Shown here: piece after piece, positions 4,901-52,950 of the stretch
How the letters are laid out: each line of letters begins with the position of its first letter
Position numbering within the stretch: position 1 is the first letter of the stretch
Translations under genes and position numbers: made by a program
Assembly: GCA_907163375.1 (NCBI GenBank)
Contig: CAJQUW010000464.1
Span: 1 to 64,000, forward strand
Length of the DNA: 64,000 nt
Origin: Prostheceraeus crozeri
Taxonomy: Eukaryota; Platyhelminthes; Polycladida; Euryleptidae
Reading direction: 5' to 3'
The notes under the pieces: generated by a model
What the model saw: the letters and a program-made list of their open reading frames with translations, nothing else
Databases searched by the model: none
Told to the model about the DNA's origin: nothing

Positions 4901-5509
4901 TTAAAAATACCCAATTTTCAAATTTTTCAAAATCTCAAATTTGAGAATTACAATTTTACACCCTTAAAATCGTGACCGTTCCAGGACACCGAAAATCATA
5001 AAAGTTAAGAATCTCAAATTTGTGAATTACAATTTTCTCGCTTAAATCATGACCGTTCCAGGACACGGAAAAAATCATAAAAGTTAAGAATCTCAAATTT
5101 GAGAATTACAATTTTTACCTTGTAAATCATGACCGTTCCAGGACACCGAAAATCATAAAAGTTGAGTATTTCAAATTCATGAATTTTATCCATCTTTCAG
5201 GTTTTTAAAATATATCATGTGACTAATAATATTTCTTTAAGAATGTAACACAATCTCTTACAATGCCTATTATTGTTACTGCTTTGCACTCTGATGAACC
5301 TCCCAATTGTAGGGAACAGCTGCTCCCGCATACATGACATAAATGCAGTTGCTTCTGGCATTCCTGAACCATTGAATTACAGAACAAGCAGCTGTTACCC
5401 TATTAAAGATTAAAACGACGTGGAATATATTGCAGCATGTAGGAAGTAAGTCTTCATTTTACAATTCCATTAATCATAACTAGTGACTGTTTTCTTTCTT
5501 CCTTGCAAA

Positions 5510-7409: not shown

Positions 7410-8629
7410 TTAAGAATCGCTTCGTTGTAATTCATTTTGATAAAATCGGCCTCTGATATCTTCATTATTTAAATCTTTGATTTCGTAAGTAATTGGATAA
7501 GTTTGATTTATTTTACAAACTTCAAATATCTCTTTCGTCCAATAGCCCACGAAGCCTTTTTCAAATTTATTCTTATACTTAAATATTCTAACTCTATCAC
7601 CAATTTTAAATTTCGGCTTAAGTTTCTGCAAATTCGGATTACTCTTATTCGAATCATTATTCTCGAATATTTTCTTTCGTATTAAATCAGGGTCGTCAGA
7701 AGCATTCTTTGGGGTTTCTTCAATACCAGAATGAACTTTATTATTGTACTGCTCTACAACTCCTGGTAATATCTTCAACCATTTCTGATTTCTTTGCTCA
7801 GTAAATTTCTTGAATAATTTATTTTTTAACGTCCGATTGAATCTTTCTATCACTACGGCCTTCCCTGCATTTTCAGTTGAATACACAGTTTCAAATAGTG
7901 GCTGAACGTTTCGGTTATAAAATTCCGACCCTTTATCAACAAACAATTTCCTTGGCTTTCTCTTACTTTCTTGAAAGATTTCTTCAAACGCATATTTAAC
8001 TGACAGACAACTTTTGTTTTTTAAAGGCTTTACCCAAGCGTATCGTGTATATAAATCTATAACGGTCAATTCGTATTTGTAGTCCCTTTCATTCGGCATA
8101 TGAATAAGATCAGCACACCAAATATCATCTTTATTAAATACTTCTACTTTCAATAAATATTTAGGCTTTCTATATTCTTTATGAATTTCAGAGGCGTAGG
8201 TTCGAGCGTTGCTCTCAGACAGCTTTGCTGTCGTTTCATTTAAACCCTGACCGAATAATATTTTAGCTTGTAAAGCTTTCTTAACAAACATTCTTTCAAT
8301 TTTTTCTCTAAATGTAGGATTTTGAATACTATCTAATTCTTGAATCATCTTCTCATCAGCTGCATTTCGAAAACTTAGATCATGATTTCGATAAGCTAAA
8401 TCATGCCTGTAAGCTGCGGCATCTACTCTATTTATTGGTTCTTCACCTGGTTTTGGATTATTATTCTCATCTAGTCTTATATCTAATCGAGTTCCGGGAC
8501 CGGTATATGAATGACCAGGAAGATGTTTTTCTTTCGAATATTTACTCCAAATAAATCCAGGAAAGTTTTCTAATGCTTTTTGTATGTCGTTACCTTCATA
8601 AATTTTACAATTTGAGTTTTTATTTTTGT
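7410..8629 (-). pseudogene. PLA2-like domain fused in frame to rve integrase
   Basis: The C-terminal part is a Polinton DDE integrase. Asp is seen in WCADLIHM, Asp in LFVDKGSEF and Glu in VIERFNRTLK, with a C-terminal SH3-like/chromo-type tail. The gap between the second Asp and Glu is 29 residues, shorter than the usual 35. Reading upstream without a stop (8349 to ~8629) gives a parvovirus-type phospholipase A2-like domain, with the calcium-loop block SYTGPGTRLD and the His-Asp block AAAYRHDLAY followed by its usual helical tail (FVKKALQAKILFGQGL). Both domains share one frame. A piggyBac copy entered at TTAA 8630-8633. The missing N-terminus may begin at an ATG at 10329-10327 beyond it. PLA2 domains in small viruses breach endosomal membranes, and integrase inserts the element. 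Confidence 0.85.
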
Positions 8630-8763
8630 TTAACCCTTTCAGTCCGGCAACCTTTTTTTTCTTTGAAAAAAATCTTTCTCCTCAGAGATAGTCTTCTTAG
8701 ACCTCAAATAACATCATTTGAATAGAGAAAACGTTTTTGTGATTTTAGTTACGAGTTAGGACC

Positions 8764-9115: not shown

Positions 9116-10268
9116 CTAAGTCAATGTATGGCAAACTTTGCACCGCTGTCTTTGGTCAGCTGTCACCAGCTCCGGCCAATGAGCGACCTGATCGGATCGA
9201 ATGTCAGTTTGAGGTATGATGGCAGAACGACGTCGTGTTTTTGCTGGAGAAATTGCTCCGTCCCCGACTCGGCATGGTCGACCTCGCTTTCGTGGGGTGC
9301 TGAGCATTTCGGGTGTCTTACCTTGGAGACATAATGAGTTTGACACCTTCGCAGAAAACGACAAAAGATCTAATCGACCTCTTGCCGCAACATCAAGTTG
9401 ATCACAATCTCTTTTATAATGAATCCAAGCGTTTACTAGACACAGGTTGATACTCTAAAAGAAGACAGGTTTGTAAAATTTCCTGGTTTTATGATCGCAG
9501 CGATAAAGTGACATCAGCATGTCGAATTTATCGACACCACACCCATATGTTGATGTAATGAGTGACAATCGCAGGTCATGGCACTTGAACCCTCTTCTCT
9601 GCCTTTCGATCAAATCGCTGAACATTTGTTATCGGGTCAACTGAAACATAAGAATAACTCAGCTGAATTGATCTGTTGTCGAACCAGCGGACGATAGAAA
9701 TATTTGTTTTCTTTTCTTGACGGCAATCAAACGAACCACGACCCGTAGTCTGAAGCTCCTTTTCCGATTTCAAAGGACATCCGCGCAAACGATTGGCTTG
9801 CAATGTACCAGCTGATTCTATACCGAAGTCTCTCTTCAACATAATCTGAAGTTCAATGAAATTGAAAAAATTGTCAAAATATACTATATGGTTTGCATGG
9901 CAAGGTAGCATTTCGCACACTTTCAAAACCATATCACCAGGCTGATATCCACATGATGACGATCTCAATTTCAAGGGCGAGCCATCATAAAAGTAGAAAT
10001 CATGTGTAAATCCATCCACTCGATTTCGAGAAATAACTTTGAAACCCCAACGATGAGGTATTTTCGGCAAGTATTGCTTCAGACTGGTTTTACCTTTAAA
10101 TGGTATGATTTGCTCGTCGACACTTTGGTGTTGTAGAGGCTCCGATTTCAAGCATGATCGACGAATGAATTCGAGCAATGTTCTGACCTTGAAGAGTCGG
10201 TCAAATTCATCACTATTTCGGTCCATCACAATGTCATTGTTGTCCGCAAAATGAATGAATTTATTCAA
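9116..10268 (-). pseudogene. piggyBac transposase remnant (DDE_Tnp_1_7)
   Basis: The 9576-10268 segment contains HFADNND, KVRTLLEFIRR, then the diagnostic SVDEQIIPFKGKTSLKQYLP and WGFKVISR, with the catalytic Asp in VDEQ and a second Asp in IVYFDNFFN. After a break, 9116-9364 has a basic stretch (RKRGRP) and then RQRCKVCHT, which looks like the start of the C-terminal Cys-rich finger that reads TTAA ends. The N-terminal third is absent and the two pieces are in different frames, so it is inactive. Confidence 0.85.
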
Positions 10269-10351
10269 TAAGAAAATCTAAATTAGCAATTTTTAATTTA
10301 ATTAAATTTTCGGAATTTGTAGAATTCATTTTAAAAGATAAAATAAAGGTT

Positions 10352-22585: not shown

Positions 22586-23161
22586 TTATTTTTTATCACC
22601 AACTTTTTCTGACTGTAATTGAAATGATATTTTATTAGCGTCATTAGCTATTTGATCAAATTTTTCAATCTCATCTAACGTAATAACATTATCATCACAT
22701 ACTCTTTGAAAGTAGTAGTGTAATTTGTCATAAACTTCTTTAATATGTAAATGCTTAGTTTTTAATGATTTTCGTTTCTTAGTTATTAATGATTTATCTA
22801 ACATTGTAACAGGTGAAGTTGCAAAAACACCCGTACCTGTTAAAGCTGTAGCAACTACTGGAATTACTAAAACACCAGAAGATATAACAATAGTGAGAGC
22901 GCCTAAACTTATTGTTAAGAATATGCCAATTCCTTGTGTTACATTCTTAACTTTAGTCCATCTCTTTCTTAATTTTTTATAATGCTCTAATCTTAATAAT
23001 AATTGAGATTCCTTATCTTTCATATAACGTACTCTATCTTTGTGTTTTTCTTTATTCATTTTTTCAATGTCCATTAAAGTAGAACTACGTTCATATGATA
23101 ACGAAGGATATATTCTTGCGGTTTTTTCCATTTTTGTTTCATCCACTTTTGTTTCTTCCAT
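22586..23161 (-). CDS. Two-helix membrane protein of Polinton-1
   Basis: A 191-residue frame beginning MEETKVDETKME at the inner edge of the right TIR. After a charged helical region come two adjacent hydrophobic segments (IGIFLTISLGALTIVI and VLVIPVVATALTGTGVF), predicted membrane helices in a hairpin, then a basic cluster (TKKRKSLKTK) and a helical tail. Past the stop at 22586 another frame continues with a charged coiled segment (to about 22400), so the original protein may have been longer and lost its end to a frameshift in an A-run. Possible virion-membrane or holin-like role; not identified. Confidence 0.55.
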   Translation of the reverse strand: MEETKVDETKMEKTARIYPSLSYERSSTLMDIEKMNKEKHKDRVRYMKDKESQLLLRLEHYKKLRKRWTKVKNVTQGIGIFLTISLGALTIVISSGVLVIPVVATALTGTGVFATSPVTMLDKSLITKKRKSLKTKHLHIKEVYDKLHYYFQRVCDDNVITLDEIEKFDQIANDANKISFQLQSEKVGDKK

Positions 23162-23163
23162 TT

Positions 23164-23663
23164 TTAAAGAAATATTATTAGTCGCATGATATATTTTAAA
23201 AACCTGAAAGATGGATAAAATTCATGAATTTGAAATTCTCAACTTTTATGATTTTCGGTGTCCTGGAACGATCATGATTTACAAGGTAAAAATTGTAATT
23301 CTCAAATTTGAGATTCTTAACTTTTATGATTTTTTCGGTGTCCTGGAACGGTCATGATTTTAAGGGTGAAAATTGTAATTCTCAAATTTGAGATTTTGAA
23401 AAATTTGAAAATTGGGTATTTTTAAAAACGCCTAAATTTATGAATTTAGGTCTTCATAACCTGAAAAATGACCAAAATTCATGAATTTAGACCATTTAAA
23501 AGTACCATTTTTTTGAAAAATCGGTATCTTTAAAAACGTCTAAGTTCATGAATTTAGGACTTAAAAACCTGAAAAAGGGTCAAAATTCATGAATTTATGT
23601 CGTTTTTAAAGATACTATTTTTTGAATTTTATGGTGTCCTGGAACGGTCTTTTGCCCATTACT
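23164..23663 (-). repeat. Right TIR of Polinton-1
   Basis: Reverse complement of the left TIR, intact, with three copies of 'gtgtcctggaacg'. Its uninterrupted 'gcgtttttaaaaatacc' equivalent shows the pre-insertion sequence at the site where the left TIR took in the TTAA element. The inner edge lies directly at the start codon of the membrane-protein gene (23161), so that gene's promoter must lie within the TIR. Confidence 0.9.
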
Positions 23664-25539: not shown

Positions 25540-26600
25540 CCTCCTTTGCTTTATTTATTAACTTTATTTATAACGTACACATTATTGAAACTTCATTTTT
25601 AACTTTTAAACTGGTGAAACTTTATTTCATTTCTGACATTCATGCAGATAGAACTTTATTCTTAACATACACACTATTGAAACTTCATTTTTAACTTGTA
25701 AACTCTTGAAACTTTATTTTGATATACAAACAGCGAAAACTTTATTTCTAACGTATATACTATTGAAACTTTATTTCTAACTTGTAAACTCTTTAAACTT
25801 TATTTTCATATACAAACAGCTGAAACTTTATTTCTAACGTATACACCATTGAAACTTTATTTTTTAACTTGTAAACTCTTGAAACTTTGTTTTTGATATA
25901 CAAACAGCTAAAACTTTATTTCTAACGTACACACTATTGAAAATTTATTTCTAACTTGTAAACTCTTGAAACAGTTATAATTTTATTTTTAATTTACACT
26001 TAGTCTAACTTGTAAACTAGTAAATCTTGCGATCTTATTTTTACAAACAGTTGCACCTTTATTTCTAACATATACACTATTGAAACTTTATTTCTAACTT
26101 GTAAACTCTTGAAACTTTATTTTGATATACAAACAGCTAAAACTTTATTTCTAACGTATATACTATTGAAACTTTATTTCTAACTTGTAAACTCTTGAAA
26201 CTTTATTTTGATATACAAACAGCTAAAACTTTATTTCTAACGTACACACTCTTGAAACTTTATTTTTAACTTGCAAACAGCTAAAACTTTATTTCTAACG
26301 TACACACTATTGAAACTTTATTTTTAACTTGTAAACTGGTGAAACTTTATTTTTTATCTTGTAAACTCTTGAAACTTTATTTTGTTTCTAACATACAAGC
26401 AGATAAAGCTTTATTTCTAACATACACACTATTGAAACTTTGTTTCTAACTTGTGCACTGATGAAACTTTATTTTTAACTTGTTAACTGATGAAACTTTC
26501 TTTTAACATACAAACAGATAAAACTTTATTTCTGACGTACACACTGTTGAAACTTTATTTTTAATCTGTAAACTGTTGAAACTATATCTTTCATTTACAA
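25540..26600. repeat. Higher-order minisatellite, ~28-bp monomers
   Basis: About 35-40 monomers of the form 'aactttatttctaacnn' plus a variable second half. Three monomer types (ending 'cacactattga', 'gtaaactcttga', 'tacaaacagctaa') recur in order, giving a ~85-bp higher-order unit. No coding potential. Confidence 0.85.
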
Positions 26601-27230
26601 ATAGTAGAACGCGTAGTCTAACTTGTAAATCTTATAACACTTCATATGGGTGATAATGGTAGGTGAAATAGTGTTAAATAAAATTAAGATAGCTTACACG
26701 ATTCTGGGATAGCAATCGACTGCGATCCATGTGTAAAGAGCTTGTTAGACTACGAAAGAGAGAAGTGTGTTATGTTGCGTGTGGCGCGTGAGTGTCCTCC
26801 CATTTCATTCCATTCATCAATTCGTCTCATTGATAGAGACAGGTAGAACTCATGGTTCTCATAACGTATGCAATGGAAAGTTTATAAGGCAACCTTCGAC
26901 AGTTGGCTAAATGTCGCCCTGGCGCGAATGCATACTACGTTGAGACAGAGGCAATCACTTGCAAACATGACGCAGAGAGGTTTAACAAGATTGACCATTG
27001 CTGAATGTCCCTTGCGGTATACATAATTAGAGATGACAAAGAATCAAACTGTTAAAGCGAGTGCTTTTCATTCAAACTAGTTTATGCAAATTGCTTTCAT
27101 TAGAAAAACTCCCGAAAAAAACTCTACGATAAAAGATTGATAGGTGACTCATATATTGACAGCTGTGTTGACTACCAAAGCTCCGTTGCCGCGTTGCCTA
27201 CTTTGAACTCATGTCATGCAAGACGACATC

Positions 27231-37983: not shown

Positions 37984-40900
37984 ATGGTAAGTTAAAGATT
38001 TCCTCTCTCATCTCCCTCAAACGTGTGGCTAATAGCATCTTCCTCAATTTCAGGCATCAACTTCATCACCAACGCCCTCCCTTCTCGAGGAAAGTTTAGA
38101 GTTGTTGAGTCAAAGTAGGTTGTAACAATACACTGAGACTTGAACAGAGATGATAGAATGATTTCTCTTTCAGGTGATGTGAGTTCCAGCTCAGGACTCT
38201 CGCGACAAGGCAACGAGTGGGAATGTGCCGACTGCGGACATATGTTTACAAGGAAGCACAGTCTCCTTCGACACATCAAACAACGTGTGTGTCAACGCAA
38301 AGCGGCGTCAATCTCCGGAGGTGAAGTTGATTCTGACGATGACATCTCCTTTCCTTGCGATTTGTGCCCTCTTTCTTTTGATATTCACTTTCAGTGATCT
38401 TCGCACAGACTTCAACACACGCATGCAAATGATCACTACACCAACGGTACCTCTACCATCTCCCTCATTAATGTTTCACATAATAATTTAGTACGCGACT
38501 ACTTCATGGAGTCCAATACTCAAATAGTAGATTTTCCTGAGTGGCTCCTTCAAAATTCTAACATTATCGAAGCGCTCTTCAACAATTTAGACAATTTTAG
38601 AATGACGGCGCTCATCTACCTTAAACTAAAATATATTAAGACAGATTTTCAAACGGGTCAAGTGACGGAGAGAATACAGTTTCATGTTCCTTCCTCTTCC
38701 GCAACCGAAGTTGTAGACTGCGAGTCTTGGCTAAATTTTCACATTCAATGTTTAAAATCAAATGTAGATAAATTCAATAAACGCGACAGCGCTCTCATTT
38801 TTGATGGTGTGGACTCAGCCATATTCAAAATTTCACTATTAGAAAGTCATGCAGCTCGAGGTACATTTAAACTACCAAAAACGTTGTATAATAAGAAAGC
38901 TGTCATCAATGTCGATTGTAAATCACAGTGTTTCAAATATGCAGTCCTATCCATCCTTCACTATAATGATATCAACGCGCACCGAGATCACACCTATAGC
39001 TATAGACAGTGGGAGGATGAACTAGACTTTGAAGGTTGTGATAGTAACAACATGAAAATCAAAGATGTAGAAACGTTCGAAAAACATAATAAGATTAAAA
39101 TTGTAGTTCACGTGTGGGAGAAGGGGTTGAAGGGTGCCCGCTATAATTCACGTTCAACTTGTTATGAACGTGTAGTCAACCTCTTATTAGTAAAACAAGA
39201 TGATAGCGAGGAATGGCACTGCTGTGGTATTCCCAAAATCTCTCGCTTGTACACTCACTTGGGGCATTCTAAAAGAGGTGAACATTTTGTATGCGATCGC
39301 TGCATCCGCTCCTTTTGGAGTAAAGATAAATTTGAAACTCACTATGAATGGTGCAAGCGAGGTAAATTACAAATGGAACGCATGCCCAAAGATAAAATAT
39401 TTTCACATAGGGATAATGGTGACGATTTAAGTCCCCTGCGTGTCATTTACGCAGACATAGAATGCTACATTGATGATATCATCCACAAGCCAGCAGCCAT
39501 ATCCTGCTATGAAGTATGGCATGACCACTTTTGGAATAGACAAAACAAAATGCATACTTGGCAAGGTGAAGATTGCATTTCAAAATTTCTAGAATTTCTC
39601 GATAAAGCTGCTAAATTTCAACAATCATCTGATTCCCAATTGCAGCGTAAGTCACTACATATGTCAGATGAAGACAAACAAAAATTTGAAAGTTGCACAT
39701 CCTGACCTAAATGTCATAAAACGTTTGAAGACGATAAAATTAAGAAAGTGCGTGATCATGATCACATCACTGGTAAATTTAGAAACGCACTCTGCTCCAA
39801 ATGTAACTTTTCACTTAGGTTGAGACGTCGTGTACTACCCGTCATTTTTCATAACTTTAAGGGCTATGACAGTCATATGCTCATAAAAGGAGGGTTGAGC
39901 CAGATGAAATCGTGGCAGTTTAATGTAATAGCAGAAACGAGAGAAAAATTCATGGCAATGACAGCAAAAGTACCAGTAGATAAAACTAAAGAAAATAAGA
40001 CAGTCTTCTTCGAAATAAAATTTTTAGATTCATTCCAATTCATGTCAGCGTCACTAGCTTCTCTCGTTCGTAATCTCAAGTTTCTTCCCCATAGTCAAAC
40101 TTTGAAGAAACACTATCCAAACTTAACGGATGAAATAATCACTCGCAAAGGAGTCTTTCCTTATGCGTATTTTAGCTCAATGTCTAAACTAAATGAAACA
40201 ACCCTTCCTTCTATTGACAAATTCCAAAACGATTTGACGGGTGAAGATTGTCCAGTAGAAGATTATGAACATGCTCAAGAGGCATGGTTAAAATTTGAAT
40301 GTAAAACGTTTGGCGATTATATGATCGCTTACTTAGAATTAGATGTCATTTTGCTGGCTGATGACTTTCAGGAATTTCGACGAGTGGCATTAGAAGAAGA
40401 CAAATTAGATCCTGTCCACTTTGTCAGTCTACCAGCCATGTCCTTTAAATCAGCCTTTAAAATGACTGGTGAGACCATTCATCTCTTACAAGACCCGGAG
40501 ATGTATAATATATTTGAGCGCGGAATACGCGGTGGTCTCACATTTGTAAATAAACATCATATAAAATCTGAAACAGTAGGTGATGATCATATCCACCTAA
40601 AGTACTATGACCAAAATAATTTATATGGCAGTTCACTGTCTAAACCACTACCTCATTCCGAGTTTAGTTGGTTAAATCAAGATGAGCTTGAGTATTACTC
40701 TAACCCTTCAAACATACTGAAGATACCAGATGAAGGTGATTGGGGATATTATTTTGAAGTGGATTTGATTTATCCAAATGGCATTAAAAATAAAACTGCT
40801 GATTTCCCACTCGCACCTGAATCTGGTGAAGTGACTGAAGATATGTTTTCACCATTCATGTCACAATTTCATAATAACTTAACAGAGTGTGGACAGCCAA

Positions 40901-41958
40901 GGTACAAACCATGCCGCAAACTTTTACTCACCCAATATGATAAGAAAAATTATCTCGTACACTTCTGCATACTAAAATTCTATTTAGAAATGGGCATGCT
41001 TCTAAAGTCAGTTCACCGCATTATCAAATTTAGACAAAAAGCCTTCCTCAAACCCTACATAGATAGTAACAGTCAAAAACGTGCACTCGCCCAAAATAAT
41101 TTTGAAAAGGATTTTTATAAATATAAGAATAACAGTCTTTTCGGAAAGACCATGGAGGATGTTAGAAAACGTATAAACTACAAACTAGTCGTTGATGAAC
41201 AAAAATATCACAAATTGACCTCATCATCTCTTTTCATTGATAGAGAGATCATCGATGAGGATCTTGTAGGTGTTAAAATGATAAAATCAGAAGTTGAGTT
41301 GTGCAAACCCATCTATATTGGGCAAGCCGTTTTAGATTATTCCAAGCTTGAAATGTATCAAATCTTCTACAAAATATTAAAACCATGCCCTCTCGTAAAA
41401 GAGGTTCGCTTGCTGGGTGGTGATACAGATAGTTTCTTTTTAGGAATTACCACTCAAAAAGATTTAAATTTTAATGAAGTAGGCAAGTCATTAGAAAAAT
41501 ATTTCGACACATCTAACTACAATCCCACTCATCCACTCTATTCCATGCAGAATAAAGCCAAACTTGGTTGTTTTAAGGATGAAACAGCAGGAAAGGAAAT
41601 AGATGAAATGATTCTCCTCCGTCCTAAAATGTATTCCATGAAATTAAAAGAATGTGCAGATAGTATTAAGCATGCTAAAGGTATATCAAAATCCATTGTT
41701 CAGAAAATGAAACATCGGTCCTATAAGAAGGCCTATAAAAATAAAACTATAACGTTTGTCAATATGACAATCTTAAAATCTCAAGTTCATACTGTGAAAA
41801 CGTACACGTTCAAGAAACGAGCACTTTCAGCATGGGAAGATAAGAGGTGTTGGATAGGACATAACACATCTCTTCCACATGGACATCCTGACACAAACAT
41901 ACCTCCACCCAAAAGAATAAAACTCACGCTACCACATTCAGGAGATGTATTGACATAA
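37984..41958 (+). pseudogene. polB: Family-2 DNA polymerase B, copy A (two stops)
   Basis: Exons: ATG alone at 37984-37986, 38054-38114, and 38174-41958, joined by introns 37987-38053 and 38115-38173 with standard GT/AG ends, as in copy B. The long exon is interrupted twice in frame, by TGA at 38395-38397 (within the second C2H2 finger) and TGA at 39703-39705 (where copy B has a Cys codon of the zinc patch). Otherwise all catalytic blocks remain: VIYADIECYID, FHNFKGYDSHML, YLELDVILLAD, YYDQNNLYG, NNSLFGKTM, GGDTDSFF. A protein-primed family-B enzyme. The protein differs from copy B at many positions although both flanks are nearly identical. Confidence 0.9.
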
Positions 41959-42094: not shown

Positions 42095-43186
42095 TCATAT
42101 ACATATTTTTATTTCAATAAACATATCACAATGACTTAACTTTGTTTTCCGAAACACTAAAGTTACGAGGGATTTAGTATCTTTCACATGGATGCACTCT
42201 TGTAAACCATTGGTAATTTTGATAGCAATAGAGGGTATAGTTTGTTTGACGACGGGATGATAGAAAATAGATTCAAACATCTTCTCGACTATTCCATATG
42301 AAGCGTCTTTATCATGAATGAAATCGCGTAAAATGTATTCTTTTTTCTCACCAACAGAAATAGGTAGAATCAAATCACTTTGAATGGTTGGAAAGAAATA
42401 AACTGTAAGTTTGTCATTATATTTCTGAATAACCAACTTATTCTTGTCCGCCATAAATTTCTCTCCATACTTCTTACCCACAGTCTCATCCCATCGTTTT
42501 ACTAACTCAATAAGTGATAAAGGTTGAACACCACGCTTTTTCAAAATGATGCGTTCTTCGCATTCTACAACATCTTCATCAAATATTTTAAATCTATAAT
42601 GAAATTTGTTGATTCGATTTGAATAAACTTTTTTAACATTTGCAGTAGCAATTGACGTTAGATGTAGTCCATGACCAAAACCAAGATGTGGATAGAATTC
42701 ACTATCCAACCTCAGCGTAAGACCTTTAGTAAAAGAATGAAAGCGGAGGAACTGTCTCCCACTCCAATGATAGATAGTAAACTCATAAACTTTCTGATCC
42801 TTATTCTTCATGATGGAAGTATTACCACTATTGAATGCCTTAATAATTTTCTCATTCCCAAATGGTTCATAAGAATCTGATTTTATCTGAATCCATTCAT
42901 AGTTCCACTTTCCATCTGATGTTAAATTGTATGGGAACTGGAATGCATTATTCATCGTTATTCCATCATGGGTGCGAGGAGTCAATATCATTTCTTCCAA
43001 ATCATTCACATTCTGAATATTGCTATCATAGCAAATACTAGAAACGCCAACCTCCCATTCACCTTCTAAATGTAGTGGCCGATTTAATTCTACTCGATAG
43101 TCTGATGGTTTATTTTTAGGAAATTTATTCATAGAAGCATTACTTGGCAAGTAGATTAGAAACGAGTCCTTATTTTCACTTTCCAT
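42095..43186 (-). pseudogene. Penton-like protein 1, copy A, internal deletion
   Basis: The start is probably MESENKDSFLIYLPS (43186). The block PSDYRVELNRPLHLEGEWEVGVSSI is shared with many invertebrate Polinton proteins and resembles the opening of the penton-like minor capsid protein. Compared with copy B, an in-frame 471-bp segment (157 codons) is missing at about 42385, between KLTVYF and the late QSDLILPISVG block. The copy-B stop codon TGA is TTA here, adding 14 residues. The protein would lack its central domain and is probably non-functional. It follows penton-like protein 2 on the same strand. Confidence 0.7.
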
Positions 43187-43225
43187 ATTATTCACATTGG
43201 AAAAATATATTAGCATACTTTTGCA

Positions 43226-44626
43226 TTAACTCTTCATTCGGAAATGGAGTGTGATACTTGTCACAGCATCTTTATGAAAAGGAATCAACGCACCAGCATC
43301 GTCATAAATTGCAATATCAATTTGTGGGATGTAGTTTGATTTCAGCTTTGTATAATGCACTTTCTTGAAAGTATGCTCAGATAAAATACTGCAGCTTTTT
43401 GGCTGGTATGGTATCATTGCTAGCAATGGAGCTTCAACATCTCCCACACGTACATCTTCACCAATATTGGAATATATCTGAAAATAGTTAATACGACGCG
43501 ATAGCGACATGTCTGCGCTAGCTTTGGTTACAGTACCACTTTTAAAGATATTTTGATCAAAACCCAAAATGTCCATTAGAGTTTTATCCATAATTAGTTC
43601 AATACCTTTTCCACTTATAGTGAGAGACAAAGTACCTTCTTTTTCAGAAAATGAAATATGTTGCTCATTAATCACTTCATTTAAATAATCTACAACCAAT
43701 TTAACCGAAGTAATAATGCGAGGCATCAACACTCTTGTTTCATGTAAGATACCACCGAAAGGCTCTACACACTTCCTGTATAAAGATACGGTCCATTCTG
43801 TATCAACTTGATTTGATCCATCACATTTTAAATAGCGCATATCAAATTTTCCATGAACAGCTGCAGAACGATGTCGTAAGAACTGATGAAAATCTTCTGA
43901 ACAAACTAATACTAGATCATCATCATCATCTAATTTACTAATGACGATTTGATCCGTTGATTTCGTATAAGTCAATGTTGCCACTTGTTTACCATCAACT
44001 CGAAGGAGATAATTAAATTTCTTCAATAATGTTTCAGGAGTCATGTTTGTCTTTCTTGGCTTAATCACAATCTTCTTCACCAACGTCTTCTCATTTCTTG
44101 GAATAAGATCTACATAATAAGCTTTCTCTTTGTAAATCAAATCTTTACAACCACTTGGGTGGTAATTAACGTTATAATTATCATAGCTTGTTAAGGCGCT
44201 AGCGAGGTAACCTAAATCATTTCTTAAACTTGGACTTAAACCAACAATCCAATCTTTCTCAACTACATGATGTACATAATTATAATCATCATTGTGCGGA
44301 GTAAATTGGACAATATGTTTACACGCTTTATTCAAGAAATCATATATAAACTTTTTACATGATAATAGATCTTTCTTTGGCCACTGTGGAATGTATACTC
44401 GGCACCCCTTTTCACATTGATAAGCAGCTGTACGCCTCATATTAATAGTCATCACCTCATGATCAAAAGTATAGACACAGTTGCTATAAACAAGTTGAGT
44501 GACACCCACTTCCCAATTTCCATTTAGCTGTTGTGCATGATCAATGGGAGTAGAAAAGAGTGCAGCTCGATTACTAGTAAATCTCTTTGTAGCCGCATTG
44601 CTAAGCAAAATATGATAAAACGACAT
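43226..44626 (-). CDS. Penton-like protein 2, copy A
   Basis: Intact, 466 residues from ATG 44626 (MSFYHILLSNAATK). Opening SNAATKRFTSNRAALF and LNGNWEVGVTQLVYSN parallels the LEGEWEVGVSSICYD of penton-like protein 1, so the two are tandem paralogues. The C-terminal part (LMDILGFDQNIFKSG, INYFQIYSNIGEDVRVGD, and a tail IDIAIYDDAGALIPF) matches the design of the Polinton-1 penton (LLGFNKQ..., ITDEKGQEINF). I infer a vertex or minor capsid protein. The partial gene at the window's right edge (63457-64000) is its counterpart in copy B. Confidence 0.7.
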   Translation of the reverse strand: MSFYHILLSNAATKRFTSNRAALFSTPIDHAQQLNGNWEVGVTQLVYSNCVYTFDHEVMTINMRRTAAYQCEKGCRVYIPQWPKKDLLSCKKFIYDFLNKACKHIVQFTPHNDDYNYVHHVVEKDWIVGLSPSLRNDLGYLASALTSYDNYNVNYHPSGCKDLIYKEKAYYVDLIPRNEKTLVKKIVIKPRKTNMTPETLLKKFNYLLRVDGKQVATLTYTKSTDQIVISKLDDDDDLVLVCSEDFHQFLRHRSAAVHGKFDMRYLKCDGSNQVDTEWTVSLYRKCVEPFGGILHETRVLMPRIITSVKLVVDYLNEVINEQHISFSEKEGTLSLTISGKGIELIMDKTLMDILGFDQNIFKSGTVTKASADMSLSRRINYFQIYSNIGEDVRVGDVEAPLLAMIPYQPKSCSILSEHTFKKVHYTKLKSNYIPQIDIAIYDDAGALIPFHKDAVTSITLHFRMKS

Positions 44627-44661
44627 TTTTATATTGCTGATCTGCAACTTTGCATAACATC

Positions 44662-44955
44662 ATGAAGACTTGGATTTTGGACTCTCTACAATATATCAGA
44701 GTTGATCGTAATGGAAACGTACATTTCAAAAATTCTCATGGTCATTCATCAAGAGGTATTACATTAACATGGCGACAATTTGTCAACCTCAATGATATCA
44801 TGAGGGATTTGGAATATTTTGAAACATTAAGATTCATCTCCTTGGGTGATCAAGTTTGGCTTCAACGTCGCAACAATGAAATTCAAATCTGCCATTCTCA
44901 TTTCGCAAATACAATTGGGAGAAGTATAGAAGATACATACATCGCTGCATCATGA
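44662..44955 (+). CDS. Small PC4-like protein 1
   Basis: 97 residues (MKTWILDSLQYIRV). The pattern NGNVHFKNSHGHSSRGITLTW followed by FVNLNDIMRDLEYF resembles the strand-rich then helical core of the transcription coactivator PC4/Sub1 family (charged strand, 'GI-L', helix), which binds single-stranded DNA. A second copy with the same pattern follows at 45022. It starts 36 bp from, and diverges from, penton-like gene 2. The family assignment is my inference from pattern and needs profile support. Confidence 0.4.
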   Translation: MKTWILDSLQYIRVDRNGNVHFKNSHGHSSRGITLTWRQFVNLNDIMRDLEYFETLRFISLGDQVWLQRRNNEIQICHSHFANTIGRSIEDTYIAAS

Positions 44956-45021
44956 CATTTATTCGTCGTGAGTTCATCGCCCTACTATGCAAATCTTAAT
45001 CAGACATGACTACCACGCACC

Positions 45022-45672
45022 ATGAGTTGGAAATTAGATTCCCTACAACGTATTGAAACGGATCATGATCGAAACGTCTATTTCAAAGATTCAACTGGAA
45101 ATGTGAGAAGAGAGTTTGCTTTATCTTATCGCCATTTTCAATCTCTACATCATATCATGAAGGATTTGAAATACTTCTATATGAAAAGACATTCACGTAT
45201 TGGAAATCGCATCTGGCTGCGCGTTAACAAACGGCGAATTCAACTCTATCATTCCCAACTTCATATTAACTTCACATTTCATCAAGGTAGTTGGGAAAAG
45301 TATAAAAGGAAGGTACATCGCTCAATTTACTCATTCTTTCATCATGAAGCGCCATCGCTACACCATCGTCAACATTCTCCGTCGCTTCAGACTCTACACC
45401 AAAATCGATCTCGCAACATTACACCAACACCTTCCCAACAGCAAGTATTACCCGGGCCGACCTCAAATGTTAGTGGTGAAGATGAACAATTCACGGAATC
45501 TTCAACTCTTCCCAAATGGGACTGTACAGATTCTCGGCGCCCTTTCTCATTCATCGGCGCAGTCAATGCGCTTAGAGCTACAAAGACTTCTACGTCGGAT
45601 ATGGAAGAGGGAGAGGTGTGTGATGTCGAATCTGACTGTGGACAATATGGTGATCTCTACTCAATTGAGTGA
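45022..45672 (+). CDS. Small PC4-like protein 2 (long overlapping tail)
   Basis: MSWKLDSLQRIETDHDRNVY, paralogous to the preceding protein (same YFKDSTGNVRREFALSYRHF then HHIMKDLKYF pattern). The PC4-like part ends near 45290. The frame then stays open for another ~125 codons with His/Ser/Pro-rich composition while overlapping the TBP-like gene in another frame. I think the tail is either a genuine dual-coding extension or a chance open frame. The duplicated domain supports only the first ~90 residues. Confidence 0.4.
   Translation: MSWKLDSLQRIETDHDRNVYFKDSTGNVRREFALSYRHFQSLHHIMKDLKYFYMKRHSRIGNRIWLRVNKRRIQLYHSQLHINFTFHQGSWEKYKRKVHRSIYSFFHHEAPSLHHRQHSPSLQTLHQNRSRNITPTPSQQQVLPGPTSNVSGEDEQFTESSTLPKWDCTDSRRPFSFIGAVNALRATKTSTSDMEEGEVCDVESDCGQYGDLYSIE
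45301..45308 (+). promoter_or_regulatory. TATA box of the TBP-like gene
   Basis: TATAAAAG 43 bp before the ATG at 45344, within the overlapping PC4-like frame. Confidence 0.6.
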
Positions 45673-45886
45673 CAGTGTATCATTTTTGAAGATTCGTACC
45701 AGCAGTTACAATTTGTGTTATGAACCCGAACTTTTTCCTGCAGCTCTCATTAGTTGTTGATTACCTGTGCATGTGGCAATCTTTCATAATAGTAAAGTGA
45801 TCATTACTGGACTAAAATCTCATGTACAAGCAAATGTGATCCTAGACTATCTCATCGAGTATGTACGCACCCAGCGGATTGTATAA
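45344..45886 (+). pseudogene. TATA-binding-protein-like gene with one internal TGA
   Basis: Frame from ATG 45344 (MKRHRYTIVN) with TGA at codon 139 (45758-45760); the same frame then runs on for 41 codons to TAA 45884-45886. Repeat 1: KIDLATLHQHLPNSKYYPGR, then MLVVKM, NGTVQILGA and a Ser/Ala-rich helix LELQRLLRRI. Repeat 2: NLTVDNMVIS, then CYEPELFPAALI, and after the TGA NSKVIITGLKS and a final helix. Order and spacing match the two direct repeats of TBP, and YEPELFP is a signature of the second repeat. At 180 codons it is the size of a bare TBP core. The conserved DNA-kinking Phe residues are mostly not evident. Either a recent nonsense mutation or read-through. Expected role: recruiting Pol II to the element's TATA promoters. 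Confidence 0.7.
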
Positions 45887-45915: not shown

Positions 45916-46377
45916 TTATTTCAAATCATGATAGAACTTACAAATCATTTTTTCATTAGAGGATTGATTACATGAAAAGTTTTGAATAACAGATACAAAT
46001 CGAGATACATGTAAACGTTTTAAGATGAAGTACAGTACAAAAGCACCACACGTTGATGAAAGTGGATGTTGTAGTATGCGTTCATTTCGCTGATATTGAC
46101 GCGCATGTTTTCTCAACCACTGCTGTGTTGGTATATTTGGAGGTTGAGCAAGAGAGTCAAATAGTTCACCACGTCGGTCTTCTCCAATAAAGATCGCTTT
46201 CCAATGCTCACCGCCTAAATTCTGAGAATGAGTGTTTAGCACAATAAAGATGGGATAGTGATTTACTGCAGGTGGTAAGGTATCGAGTGAATAGACATTA
46301 TCGAAAGCTTTCAACGTCGCTTCGTCTGCATTACGCTGCACTTTAGTCTTAATATCGTCAGCAGTCAACCAACTCAT
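45916..46377 (-). CDS. Adenain-like protease, family 2
   Basis: Intact 153 residues (MSWLTADDIKTKV). Catalytic blocks of the adenovirus-protease fold: His58 in GEHWKAIFI, Asp74 in GELFDSLAQPP and Cys110 in SSTCGAFVLYF. The length is short relative to adenain (~204), as in Polinton proteases. Its ATG overlaps the capsid stop codon as TAATG, implying translational coupling from one mRNA. It converges with the TBP-like gene; an AATAAA on each strand lies in the 30-bp gap. It would mature capsid precursors. Confidence 0.85.
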   Translation of the reverse strand: MSWLTADDIKTKVQRNADEATLKAFDNVYSLDTLPPAVNHYPIFIVLNTHSQNLGGEHWKAIFIGEDRRGELFDSLAQPPNIPTQQWLRKHARQYQRNERILQHPLSSTCGAFVLYFILKRLHVSRFVSVIQNFSCNQSSNEKMICKFYHDLK

Positions 46378-47600
46378 TAACGATTATACTGAAGAATCAC
46401 GTCACGATACTTTGTAATTTCAATGTTTGAATCGAAGACTGCATAAATTAATACATTGATCGTCTCAGGTAGTGTTCTTTTGAACGTCAAATCCAAACGA
46501 ATATTATGAGGCACGTTCGATTGACGATAGGGGGCACTAATATCGCTGTCAGCAGTCAAATCAAATGCATAAATAGTATATCCACTCTTCAACTCTTTCA
46601 TAGTGAGTCTGTTGGTGTCATCCGTATTGTAAAAGCCAAAGACATCCATAAAATCAACATAACTGCGCATAAATTGATCCGCAGCAAAATCTAGTTTGTA
46701 GGGTGGACCATGATGACTCACACAATTTACACGTAAAGCAATTTCACTTAACTGATTGTGTATAAAATTGAAAGGATTCTTCTTTATATTACCATTAAAT
46801 GCATCATTTTCAACCATTGCCACCATGAGGAGCTTCGGTGCTTCCGATGGAAAGAGGCCATCTTTCATGAAACTCTCTTGATCTTTAGGAATTGTAAAGG
46901 TGAGAAGCTTTGTATGCTGAACGGGGTAAATGGCATTTTGGCGGTTAAGACCTTCAGCATGTCCTCTAATGACACTTGGATTCGGTACTACTCGACGAAT
47001 GTAAAGTGCAATATCTTCCACATGAATTCTAAAATTGTCAACTTTAGCAAATGCATTCAGCACAAATTCAGGCTTATTCAATGTCAGCTTGAGTCGCATG
47101 CTGGTATTACAGAGTAAAAACTTTGACTGTCTAAAGAAGTCTAAATTTAGCGGACCATATAGCTGACATACTCTACTATCGTTAATCATAGCAGATCGCT
47201 TTACAAAACCACTGTTTGTTTCAACATCAAATTTTCCTGCTTCATCTCTGTACCATCCCATGGCTTCCATATGACTTTTTTGTGCTGCTGGATGAAACTG
47301 TGATACATGATTGAAATATGATTTATAGGGATAATCGCTTTGACCACCTTCCACCTGCTGCTCTCCAATCGTTAGAGAAACATCGCGAAGTAATGTAGTC
47401 AATGGTAAATTGTTCAGTCCAACTTTATGTGCATCGTCAATAGCAGTTCCATCTGCTTGCTGAATTCTAAACCTCAAATCAACCATCGCATAACTCAAAT
47501 CTATGTAGTCATCACTACCACCAGGAATAACAAATTCAATGGGGCCAGCATTCTCAGCTGTTCGAGGATGATAATCTACCCTATCAACCACAAAAGTCGC
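46377..47600 (-). pseudogene. MCP: Major capsid protein, F54H12.2 type, 5' end replaced
   Basis: The frame contains AGPIEFVIPGGSDDYIDLS, DVSLTIGEQQVEG, YPYKSYFNHVSQF, SKFLLCNTSMRLKL, VRRVVPNPSVIRGH-type (IRRVVPNPSVIRGH), KDGLFPSEAPKLLMVAMV, NPFNFIHNQL, GYTIYAFDLT and LPETINVLIYAVFDSNIEI, all typical of the Maverick capsid family annotated as F54H12.2 in C. elegans. The open frame continues to 47690, but upstream of VDYHP it is encoded by the GC-rich repeat, so the natural N-terminal ~20-30 codons are missing. Double-jelly-roll hexon-like shell protein, unrelated in detail to the Polinton-1 capsid. Confidence 0.85.
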
Positions 47601-47745
47601 CCAGCGGTCGCCGCGACAGCCCTCGGCGTCGCCGAAGTCGCCGCCGCCCGGCGACTCCTGGTGGCGGTCGCCTCGACTGTATGTGGGCAACCGTTGCCCG
47701 GCGACCGCTGTCAGCAGTTGCCTCGAGTGTCAACGGCGACCTTCA
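47600..47745. repeat. GC-rich repeat truncating copy A
   Basis: ~145 bp of very GC-rich sequence built from 'ggcgac', 'gtcgcc' and 'cggcgaccgctg' blocks in both orientations. It joins the capsid gene abruptly and is followed by unrelated AT-rich DNA. It looks like the terminus of another repeat family or a recombination scar. Confidence 0.65.
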
Positions 47746-50674: not shown

Positions 50675-52950
50675 AGTAGTAAGAAAACGGCGAACACCAG
50701 ATAGCGCAAGATGGCCGCCATCGCTGACGTCCCCCCCCCTCTGGAACGGCGGAGTGCCGTGGTCGGCCGCCGTGGTGCTTCGGGTCTGAGTCCCCCCCTC
50801 TGGAACGATAGAGTGTCGTGGTGGACTTGGGCGACCGCCAGGATTAGTCTTGAGGCTATAGTGTGTGATGTTTTTCGTGCAATCTGCTGAATGTTGGGTT
50901 GTAAAATGGGTTGTTTCGAGTGGAAGGAGTGGTCGGATGAGAAAACGGAGGTCGGATTCGTATTCAGCGTGAAATTCTGCATCGGTAGGGTGAGTTTCAA
51001 GGCAATCGGAGAGAAAAAATTTTCGGCTGACGTCCCCCCCCCTGGACAGCTTGCTTCGATTTTGGCTTCCAGTGGACGGATTTTGTCGTGCGATAGCTCG
51101 TTTGAAAGCTAAGAGTGAGACAAATTCAGTGAAAGAAACGGCTTGTTCATATCTGTCTTCATTCAAAAGTTAGAGCGGTTACAAGATTTTAGGTCGGAGC
51201 TCGCTCACCTAAAAAAATCCTAAGTGTCAGAGTGACTTTGTATGGGTAAAATTTTGAAAATTTTCCAAAGTGTGGAATTTCGACCTGGGACCGTCACCAA
51301 AACATTTTTCATCAAATTTCACTGACCTCCCCCCCCCTCTGGACAGCTTGCTTCGATCTTGGCTTCCAGTGGACGGATTTTGTCGTGCGATAGCTCGTTT
51401 GAAAGCTAAGAGTGAGACAAATTCAGTGAAAGAATCGGCTTGTTCCTATCTGTCTTCATTCAAAAGTTAGAGCGGTTACAAGATTTTAGGTCGGAGCTCG
51501 CTCACCTGAAAAAATCCTAAGTGTCAGAGTGGCTTTGTATGGGTAAAATTTTGAAAATTTTCCAAAGTGTGGAATTTCGACCTGGGACCGTCACCAAAAC
51601 ATTTTTCATCAAATTTTGAAATTTCACTGACGTCCCCCCCCTCTGGACAGCTTGCTTCGATCTTGGCTTCCAGTGGACGGATTTTGTCGTGCGATAGCTC
51701 GTTTGAAAGCTAAGAGTGAGACAAATTCAGTGAAAGAAACGGCTAGTTCCTATCTGTCTTCATTCAAAAGTTAGAGCGGTTACAAGATTTTAGGTTGGAG
51801 CTCGCTCACCTGAAAAAATCCTAAGTGTCAGAGTGACTTTGTATGGGTAAAATTTTGAAAATTTTCCAAAGTGTGGAATTTCGACCTGGGACCGTCACCA
51901 AAACATTTTTCATCAAATTTTGAAATTTCACTGACGTCCCCCCCCCTCTGGACAGCTTGCTTCGATCTTGGCTTCCAGTGGACGGATTTTGTCGTGCGAT
52001 AGCTCGTTTGAAAGCTAAGAGTGAGACAAATTCAGTGAAAGAAACGGCTTGTTCCTATCTGTCTTCATTCAAAAGTTAGAGCGGTTACAAGATTTTAGGT
52101 CGGAGCTCGCTCACCTGAAAAAATCCTAAGTGTCAGAGTGACTTTGTATGGGTAAAATTTTGAAAATTTTCCAAAGTGTGGAATTTCGACCTGGGACCGT
52201 CACCAAAACATTTTTCATCAAATTTCACTGACCTCCCCCCCCCTCTGGACAGCTAGCTTCGATCTTGGCTTCTAGTGGACGGATTTTGTCGTGCGATAGC
52301 TCGTTTGAAAGCTAAGAGTGAGACAAATTCAGTGAAAGAAACGGCTTGTTCCTATCTGTCTTCGTTCAAAAGTTAGAGCGGTTACAAGATTTTAGGTCGG
52401 AGCTCGCTCACCTGAAAAAATCCTAAGTGTCAGAGTGACTTTGTATGGGTAAAATTTTGAAAATTTTCCAAAGTGTGGAATTTCGACCTGGGACCGTCAC
52501 CAAAACATTTTTCATCAAATTTCACTGACCTCCCCCCCCTCTGGACAGCTAGCTTCGATCTTGGCTTCTAGTGGACGGATTTTGTCGTGCAATAGCTCGT
52601 TTGAAAGCTAAGAGTGAGACAAATTCAGTGAAAGAAACGGCTTGTTCATATCTGTCTTCATTCAAAAGTTAGAGCGGTTACAAGATTTTAGGTCGGAGCT
52701 CGCTCACCTGAAAAAATCCTAAGTGTCAGAGTGGCTTTGTATGGGTAAAATTTTGAAAATTTTCCAAAGTGTGGAATTTCGACCTGGGACCGTCACCAAA
52801 ACATTTTTCATCAAATTTCTCTGAACGAGGGGGGGAGGGGGGGAGTCAGTGAAATTTGATGAAAAATGTTTTGGTAAAGGTCCCAGGTCGAAATTCGGAA
52901 GTTTTAAATTTTTCAAAATTTTCACCACACTGGAGCTCTCACACTTAGGA
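50675..52950. repeat. Left-end satellite array, copy B (~300-bp units)
   Basis: Two ~60-bp palindromic units (about 50735-50840), then six ~300-bp units whose 'ctggacagct' anchors fall near 51044, 51341, 51645, 51950, 52247 and 52543 (periods about 296-305 bp). It ends with the same inverted-repeat arm (about 52780-52900) as copy A. Copies A, B and C have different unit numbers. Confidence 0.9.

Follow-up and report, generated by a model that had tools for sequence, protein, structure and literature searches.

Mimics of the TATA-binding protein (TBP) are described from beta- and gammaherpesviruses (EBV BcRF1, MHV-68/KSHV ORF24, HCMV UL87), where they act on the TATT boxes of late genes, the early genes having canonical TATA boxes (PMC4893493, PMC12529657). 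The sequence identity of these mimics with TBP is given as about 10%, and KSHV ORF24 reportedly lacks the TFIIB-contacting glutamates and depends on five partner proteins and an additional C-terminal domain (PMC4893493, PMC12529657). TBP genes are also reported from mirusviruses (PMC10132985) and from mirus-like elements of Cymbomonas (PMC10675990). Finally, pB263R of African swine fever virus, which has an RNA polymerase of its own (PMC7458399), is predicted to be TBP-like by remote homology and modelling (PMC5825884).

Here we describe a TBP homologue carried by what its genes indicate to be a Maverick/Polinton element of the flatworm Prostheceraeus crozeri. Like the herpesvirus mimics, it is a TBP-like protein with a variant box standing where a TATA box would; in contrast to what is described of them, its homology to TBP is plain, its TFIIB-contacting stirrup is kept and it consists of the TBP core only, and its box reads GCAAA as against the herpesvirus TATTWAA. 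This comparison is functional only and is drawn from the papers. With the mirusviruses it has in common that an integrated element or DNA virus of eukaryotes encodes a TBP homologue; these, however, are described as large plankton viruses of the HK97 fold, not animal Mavericks. pB263R, too, is a predicted TBP-like protein, of a DNA virus, but its assignment rests on remote homology and modelling. With cellular TBP and TRF2/TBPL1 it has in common the PF00352 domain, the two repeats and both central asparagines, and it differs from them by a proline in place of F99, a changed repeat 1 and its position in a separate, long-branched clade.

The element shares with described Maverick/Polinton elements and adintoviruses an integrase with rve and chromo domains and putative polymerase, protease, capsid and ATPase genes. 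No report of a TBP or a TATA box in Polintons, Mavericks or adintoviruses was found in the literature searched, which included a minority of the subscription papers, and a Maverick-encoded TBP is likely to be new. Ideas on how many eukaryotic DNA viruses originated give Mavericks a central place, yet to our knowledge the timing of their gene expression has not been described. Our main reading, to which we give a probability of roughly 0.55, is that a family of animal Mavericks encodes a TBP of its own whose DNA-reading face is altered, and that this protein serves the elements as a transcription switch. If true, this would offer a first handle on Maverick transcription, a natural experiment on changes in TBP specificity and an independent parallel to late-gene control in herpesviruses; the system would be directly testable, because there are many near-identical copies and 331 relatives.

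A divergent TBP homologue

The window, i.e. the whole stretch of DNA that was analysed (64,000 nucleotides, positions 1 to 64,000 of contig CAJQUW010000464.1), contains the following gene:

45344..45886, plus strand: TBP homologue gene, matching PF00352 on pieces searched apart; frame broken by a TGA at 45758-45760 in this copy

The original prediction, a Maverick-encoded TBP-like frame with two repeats and a single interrupting TGA, is borne out. Indeed, the 138-residue piece before the TGA (45344-45757) matches PF00352 in two stretches (Pfam; E 7.6e-16, 58.2 bits, cut-off 22.9 bits); the 41-residue piece after the TGA stays below the cut-off (E 0.014, 15.7 bits), aligning to the second part of the repeat. 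Neither piece matches any Pfam family other than TBP at E <= 1. A profile built from 34 relatives, all of which match PF00352, gives the two pieces 179 and 47 bits and the next open reading frame of the window 7.6 bits, and it matches the solved TBP of M. jannaschii over its whole length (E 1.2e-24). Among solved structures, the first piece matches 35 distinct chains at E <= 1, all of them TBPs or TBP-containing fusions (one carries only the name ECU04_1440). The TBP homology of the frame is thus far above chance. The TGA is a decay mark of this copy, because all 29 other copies fetched from the same clade have an open frame of 181 codons.

Residues were compared using the numbering of yeast TBP, in which the stirrup glutamates are E186 and E188. 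The nine aligned family members all keep both central asparagines, F116, F190, F207, P191, T215, L189 and the second stirrup glutamate, and eight keep the first, which is an aspartate in the ninth. By contrast with cellular TBP, F99, the first intercalating phenylalanine, is a proline in all nine, and a pattern search finds the same proline in all 122 readable sequences among 136 relatives retrieved. T124 is replaced by Leu or Met (9/9), L114 by Gln (8/9) and L205 by Ala or Thr (9/9). Because F99 is a proline and only three of the four intercalating phenylalanines are kept, the protein is to be classed, from its residues, as a divergent TBP homologue and not as a canonical TBP; repeat 2 and the TFIIB face look near-canonical, repeat 1 does not.

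A single query finds 42 related public proteins and a profile finds 331 at E <= 1e-6, of which the best 120 were listed; these are known from proteins alone. Some come from contigs of 15-25 kb, and no DNA locus of a relative came from viral contigs (one encoded relative counted) or from phage records. A 28-row tree unites the 22 family members (three from elements of this genome and 19 public) in one clade with 100/100 support, parted by a very long branch from four cellular and two archaeal TBPs; no donor of the element TBP can be named from these 28 rows. The host TBP groups with human TBP in the same tree. The element TBP is 25% identical to the host TBP (37/150 columns), as against 41% between the host and an archaeal TBP (63/152 columns).

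At least seven public relatives measure 88-90 residues (P0018, P0023, P0025, P0026, P0030, P0031 and P0034); the two that were read start at the same inner methionine and comprise the second repeat only. They may represent broken copies, genes with introns or a short form.

The Maverick setting

The surrounding genome assembly comprises 2.05 Gb in 14,165 contigs. The window itself holds one TBP-less Maverick and two copies of the TBP-type element, starting at about 33 kb and 53 kb. The second copy is cut by the window's end before the position of TBP; the first is damaged: TBP carries its stop, the polymerase is interrupted and one capsid-like gene is truncated at its start. The neighbours of TBP in this first copy are listed below; capsid, ATPase and polymerase names in the TBP-bearing clades are putative, from motifs and recall.

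38398..41958, plus strand: putative protein-primed DNA polymerase, interrupted here; motifs seen by eye, pieces searched apart
42095..43186, minus strand: putative capsid-related gene 'cap3', the name being a guess; no Pfam match
43226..44626, minus strand: putative capsid-related gene 'cap2', the name being a guess; no Pfam match over threshold
45916..46377, minus strand: putative protease of adenovirus/Ulp1 type; PF02902 at E 7.6e-4, just below the cut-off, and PF00770 at E 0.043
46377..47729, minus strand: putative major capsid gene, presumably of F54H12.2 type; start damaged in this copy, no Pfam support

The only Pfam matches of the putative polymerase are to Endonuclease_7. The putative capsid and ATPase genes of the TBP-bearing clades have no match in Pfam, the Walker A motif being recognised by eye. 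The TBP-bearing element is nevertheless assigned, from its gene content, to the Mavericks/Polintons, because an integrase with rve and chromo domains adjoins TBP both in another clade-A copy (L039; rve E 5.3e-11, Chromo E 6.2e-7) and in a clade-B element (L040; rve E 1.5e-13, Chromo E 1.5e-7). In clade B, a homologue of the putative major capsid gene also adjoins TBP.

Copies, clades and constraint

The TBP type of the window (clade A) was found with the first TBP piece in at least 150 places at 99-100% identity, the window's own included. Judged by eye among the matches listed, the frame is open over at least 230 codons in 137 of 150 places, the intact frame with its upstream extension being 234 codons long. 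The 29 copies fetched are those most like TBP residues 1-138, a ranking that favours intact copies, so that they give no estimate of the intact share. In DNA they are 97.6-99.6% identical to the window's TBP, and the spread of the clade-A element is therefore recent. A second group, clade C, occupies at least 150 places at 95-100% identity to its query, and a third, clade B, was found in L004, L005 and L007; the gene is thus present in hundreds of copies in this genome, in addition to its large public family. The clades share 80/177 (A-C), 77/178 (A-B) and 94/176 (B-C) TBP residues. Among the 29 copies, pN/pS is 0.24 in codons 139-180, which lie outside the query that picked them, and 0.07 and 0.08 in the parts inside that query.

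Gene order differs in clade C, where TBP and the upstream gene ov (see below) lie on the minus strand and adjoin the end of the polymerase gene (L048, L065; contig C3151); no capsid-type gene was recognised in the stretches read. The host's own TBP gene lies in separate exons on contig C9306 (L001, L003), about 15 kb apart, and the same contig carries two copies of the element TBP gene. Another locus of this genome (L002) seemingly holds a TRF2/TBPL1-like gene.

The TBP gene overlaps an upstream gene

Two related frames precede TBP, the second of which runs into it:

44662..44955, plus strand: upstream paralogue of ov's first part, 39-41% identical to ov (alignments A3/A4); no Pfam match
45022..45672, plus strand: ov gene, 216 codons, of which the last 109 or so overlap TBP in another frame

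That the TBP gene overlaps the tail of the upstream ov gene in another frame is a new observation. The frame two bases on from TBP is open and continuous with ov for 108 codons in clade A, 101 (from the Met) in B and 112 in C. Equal openness arises in random synonymous recodings of TBP with P 1.5e-4, 1.55e-3 and 1.5e-4, respectively. The 216-codon frame persists in 25 of the 30 clade-A copies, in one of them lacking the Met, and five of the six public relatives of ov match its whole length at 51-98% identity. The case for the overlap rests on the open frame and on these relatives, since reduced synonymous change was not seen when codon identity among identical residues was compared for the three clade pairs (overlap/rest: A-B 0.50/0.45, A-C 0.45/0.54, B-C 0.57/0.58). 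Identity in the ov frame clearly exceeds its null only for B-C (P 5e-4; A-C 0.048, A-B 0.44), which points to weak constraint on the sequence of the ov tail itself.

Both frames had been labelled PC4-like, ov being the second of the two, and this label found no support: for seven proteins of the ov/paralogue type no PC4 domain (PF02229) appears in Pfam at E <= 10, nor does a profile search find a PC4 chain among solved structures at E <= 10. The best structure match in that check, adiponectin (E 0.002), was rejected as three weak copies of one chance match.

A TATA box for TBP and an altered box for other genes

The window holds the canonical box TATAAAAG, the altered box TATGCAAA and one weaker altered site, placed as follows:

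43211..43217, minus strand: weaker altered box, TATGCTA, 31 bp ahead of the start at 43186
44649..44656, minus strand: altered box TATGCAAA, 30 bp ahead of the capsid-related gene starting at 44626
44986..44993, plus strand: altered box TATGCAAA, 36 bp before the ov start
45301..45308, plus strand: canonical TATA box TATAAAAG, 43 bp before the TBP start, inside ov

For the start at 43186 the motif finder preferred another site, at -42, over TATGCTA.

The TATA box predicted 43 bp upstream of TBP is indeed there, and the same sequence precedes TBP at -43, -46 and -43 in clades A, B and C, respectively. Among 18 relatives with a long N-terminal extension, 14 have Ile-Lys or Ile-Asn 13-15 codons before the start, which is what a TATAAA near -43 would encode. 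Note that 45301-45308 doubles as ov codons (Lys-Tyr-Lys-Arg region) and may be kept for two reasons, as promoter and as coding sequence of ov.

Canonical boxes are not enriched in the element overall: of 62 ORF starts, 4 have a perfect TATAWAWR in the 160 bp upstream, namely TBP in the three clades and one TA repeat, against 202 of 3368 background stretches (6%). The starts tested are those of ORFs conserved between clades, some of them redundant, cut or doubtful. The suggestion that the protein acts on other TATA boxes of the element accordingly found no support.

A different motif precedes other genes. De novo search upstream of 16 non-TBP genes of clade A gave TTATGCAAA (log-likelihood 41.8, random maximum 34.6), and of 14 such genes of clade B gave TTTAAGCAA (34.4, random maximum 31.4), the real set exceeding all 20 random sets in each clade with equal numbers of restarts. 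The clade-A motif scores above random on clade B (P 2.5e-4), and the clade-B motif on clade A was equalled in 0 of 20,000 draws. TBP genes score low with these motifs and lack the altered box.

For counting, the pattern [TC]A[TAG]GC[AT]A was fixed after the motifs had been seen and was sought at -50 to -24. It precedes 7/16 non-TBP starts in clade A, 5/14 in B and 2/5 in C, 14/35 in total, with a background of 1.6%, 1.6% and 1.0%; on the reverse strand the counts are 1/16, 0/14 and 0/5. The clade-A genes concerned are the putative penton, ATPase and core genes, two capsid-related genes, one unknown gene and ov. The fixed pattern is absent from the other 21 non-TBP starts of the 35, among which are those of the putative major capsid, integrase and protease genes; some of the genes without it closely follow a box-bearing gene and may share its transcript. 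In the TBP-less Maverick the altered box is not significantly enriched (16 starts, P 0.053 and 0.10), a weak control consisting of one element with uncertain starts. One gene with a TATA box, TBP, thus stands against many with the box TA(T/A/G)GC(A/T)A, a split that is new.

A proposed transcription switch and its alternatives

The proposed switch would work in two steps. Host TBP would recognise the canonical TATAAAAG inside ov and start the element's TBP gene. The element TBP, with its near-canonical repeat 2 and stirrup, its proline for the first intercalating phenylalanine and its other repeat-1 changes, would then bind the TA(T/A/G)GC(A/T)A box that stands about 30-48 bp ahead of many of the element's other genes, several putative particle genes among them, and there recruit host TFIIB and RNA polymerase II through the kept stirrup. 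When TBP is bound to DNA, the 5' half of the box is read by repeat 2 and the 3' half by repeat 1. In the element, the altered box has a TA-rich 5' half, alongside a near-canonical repeat 2, whereas its remainder has changed, as has repeat 1; at the level of sequence this fit is suggestive.

The switch reading is supported by the homology, the Maverick setting, the way the gene is conserved among copies and clades, its overlap with ov and the division of the genes between the two boxes. Counting against it are the 21 of 35 non-TBP starts without the fixed pattern, the borderline result for the TBP-less Maverick and the likeness of the clade-A box to the POU octamer; in addition, the coding role in ov alone might keep the TATA box before TBP. 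The reading rests on three clades, few for comparison, and on a pattern fixed after motif discovery.

A wider proposal, which we put forward tentatively and rate at a little under an even chance, is that this is a self-contained core-promoter system in a transposon, in which the element TBP and its box would have altered in step, with host TBP reading the element's TBP gene alone and the element TBP reading the particle genes. Such a system would have arisen independently of that of the herpesviruses, would have spread through a large Maverick family and would have its TBP encoded inside another gene.

It is also conceivable, if unlikely, that the altered box is read by another factor, either a host POU/Oct protein or the ov protein, and that the element TBP does something else. 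The clade-A box contains ATGCAAA, close to the POU octamer, ATGCAAAT. However, the boxes of clades B and C (TAAGCAA, TAGGCAA and TAAGCTA) are not octamers, and the altered box is found on one strand and at the distance of the TBP gene's own TATA box.

We regard it as distinctly improbable that the element TBP supplements host TBP on ordinary TATA boxes, a reading close to the original prediction. A two-repeat TBP that keeps three phenylalanines, both asparagines and the stirrup might do so, and TATAAAAG before its own gene would permit self-activation; yet the canonical boxes are not enriched at the other genes, three of the four found being those of TBP itself, and repeat 1 is changed at F99, T124 and L114.

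Viruses often interfere with host transcription, and the kept TFIIB stirrup would suit a protein that shuts down or diverts it by tying up TFIIB or promoters. Such a role, which would leave the altered boxes and their position unexplained, appears very improbable to us. That the gene was captured from the host recently, or is a functionless relic, as the broken copy of the window could suggest, is barely credible in view of its 25% identity to host TBP (against 41% between host and archaeal TBPs), its separate and fully supported clade, the open frame in 29/29 other fetched copies with a pN/pS of 0.24, and its 331 public relatives.

Other features of the window

The TBP-less Maverick is bounded by inverted arms of 205 bp at 5044-5248 and 23156-23360, arms having been seen for this element only, and it has a double-jelly-roll match and an rve integrase match. 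A single frame in it (7413-8681, minus strand) combines a phospholipase A2-like match (PF08398, E 8.5e-9) with an rve core (E 6.2e-9), and may be either a fusion or a set of joined remnants. Another match inside it, at 9579-10277 (minus strand), is to the piggyBac-type PF13843 (DDE_Tnp_1_7, E 2.9e-29), and a piggyBac-type transposon seems to be nested there. An array of overlapping repeats, spaced at 29 and 57 bp, lies in three blocks at 25559-26648. Six tandem units of about 300 bp, at 51034-52832, immediately precede the third Maverick copy, and the unit is related to sequence near 32.6 kb and 3.2 kb.
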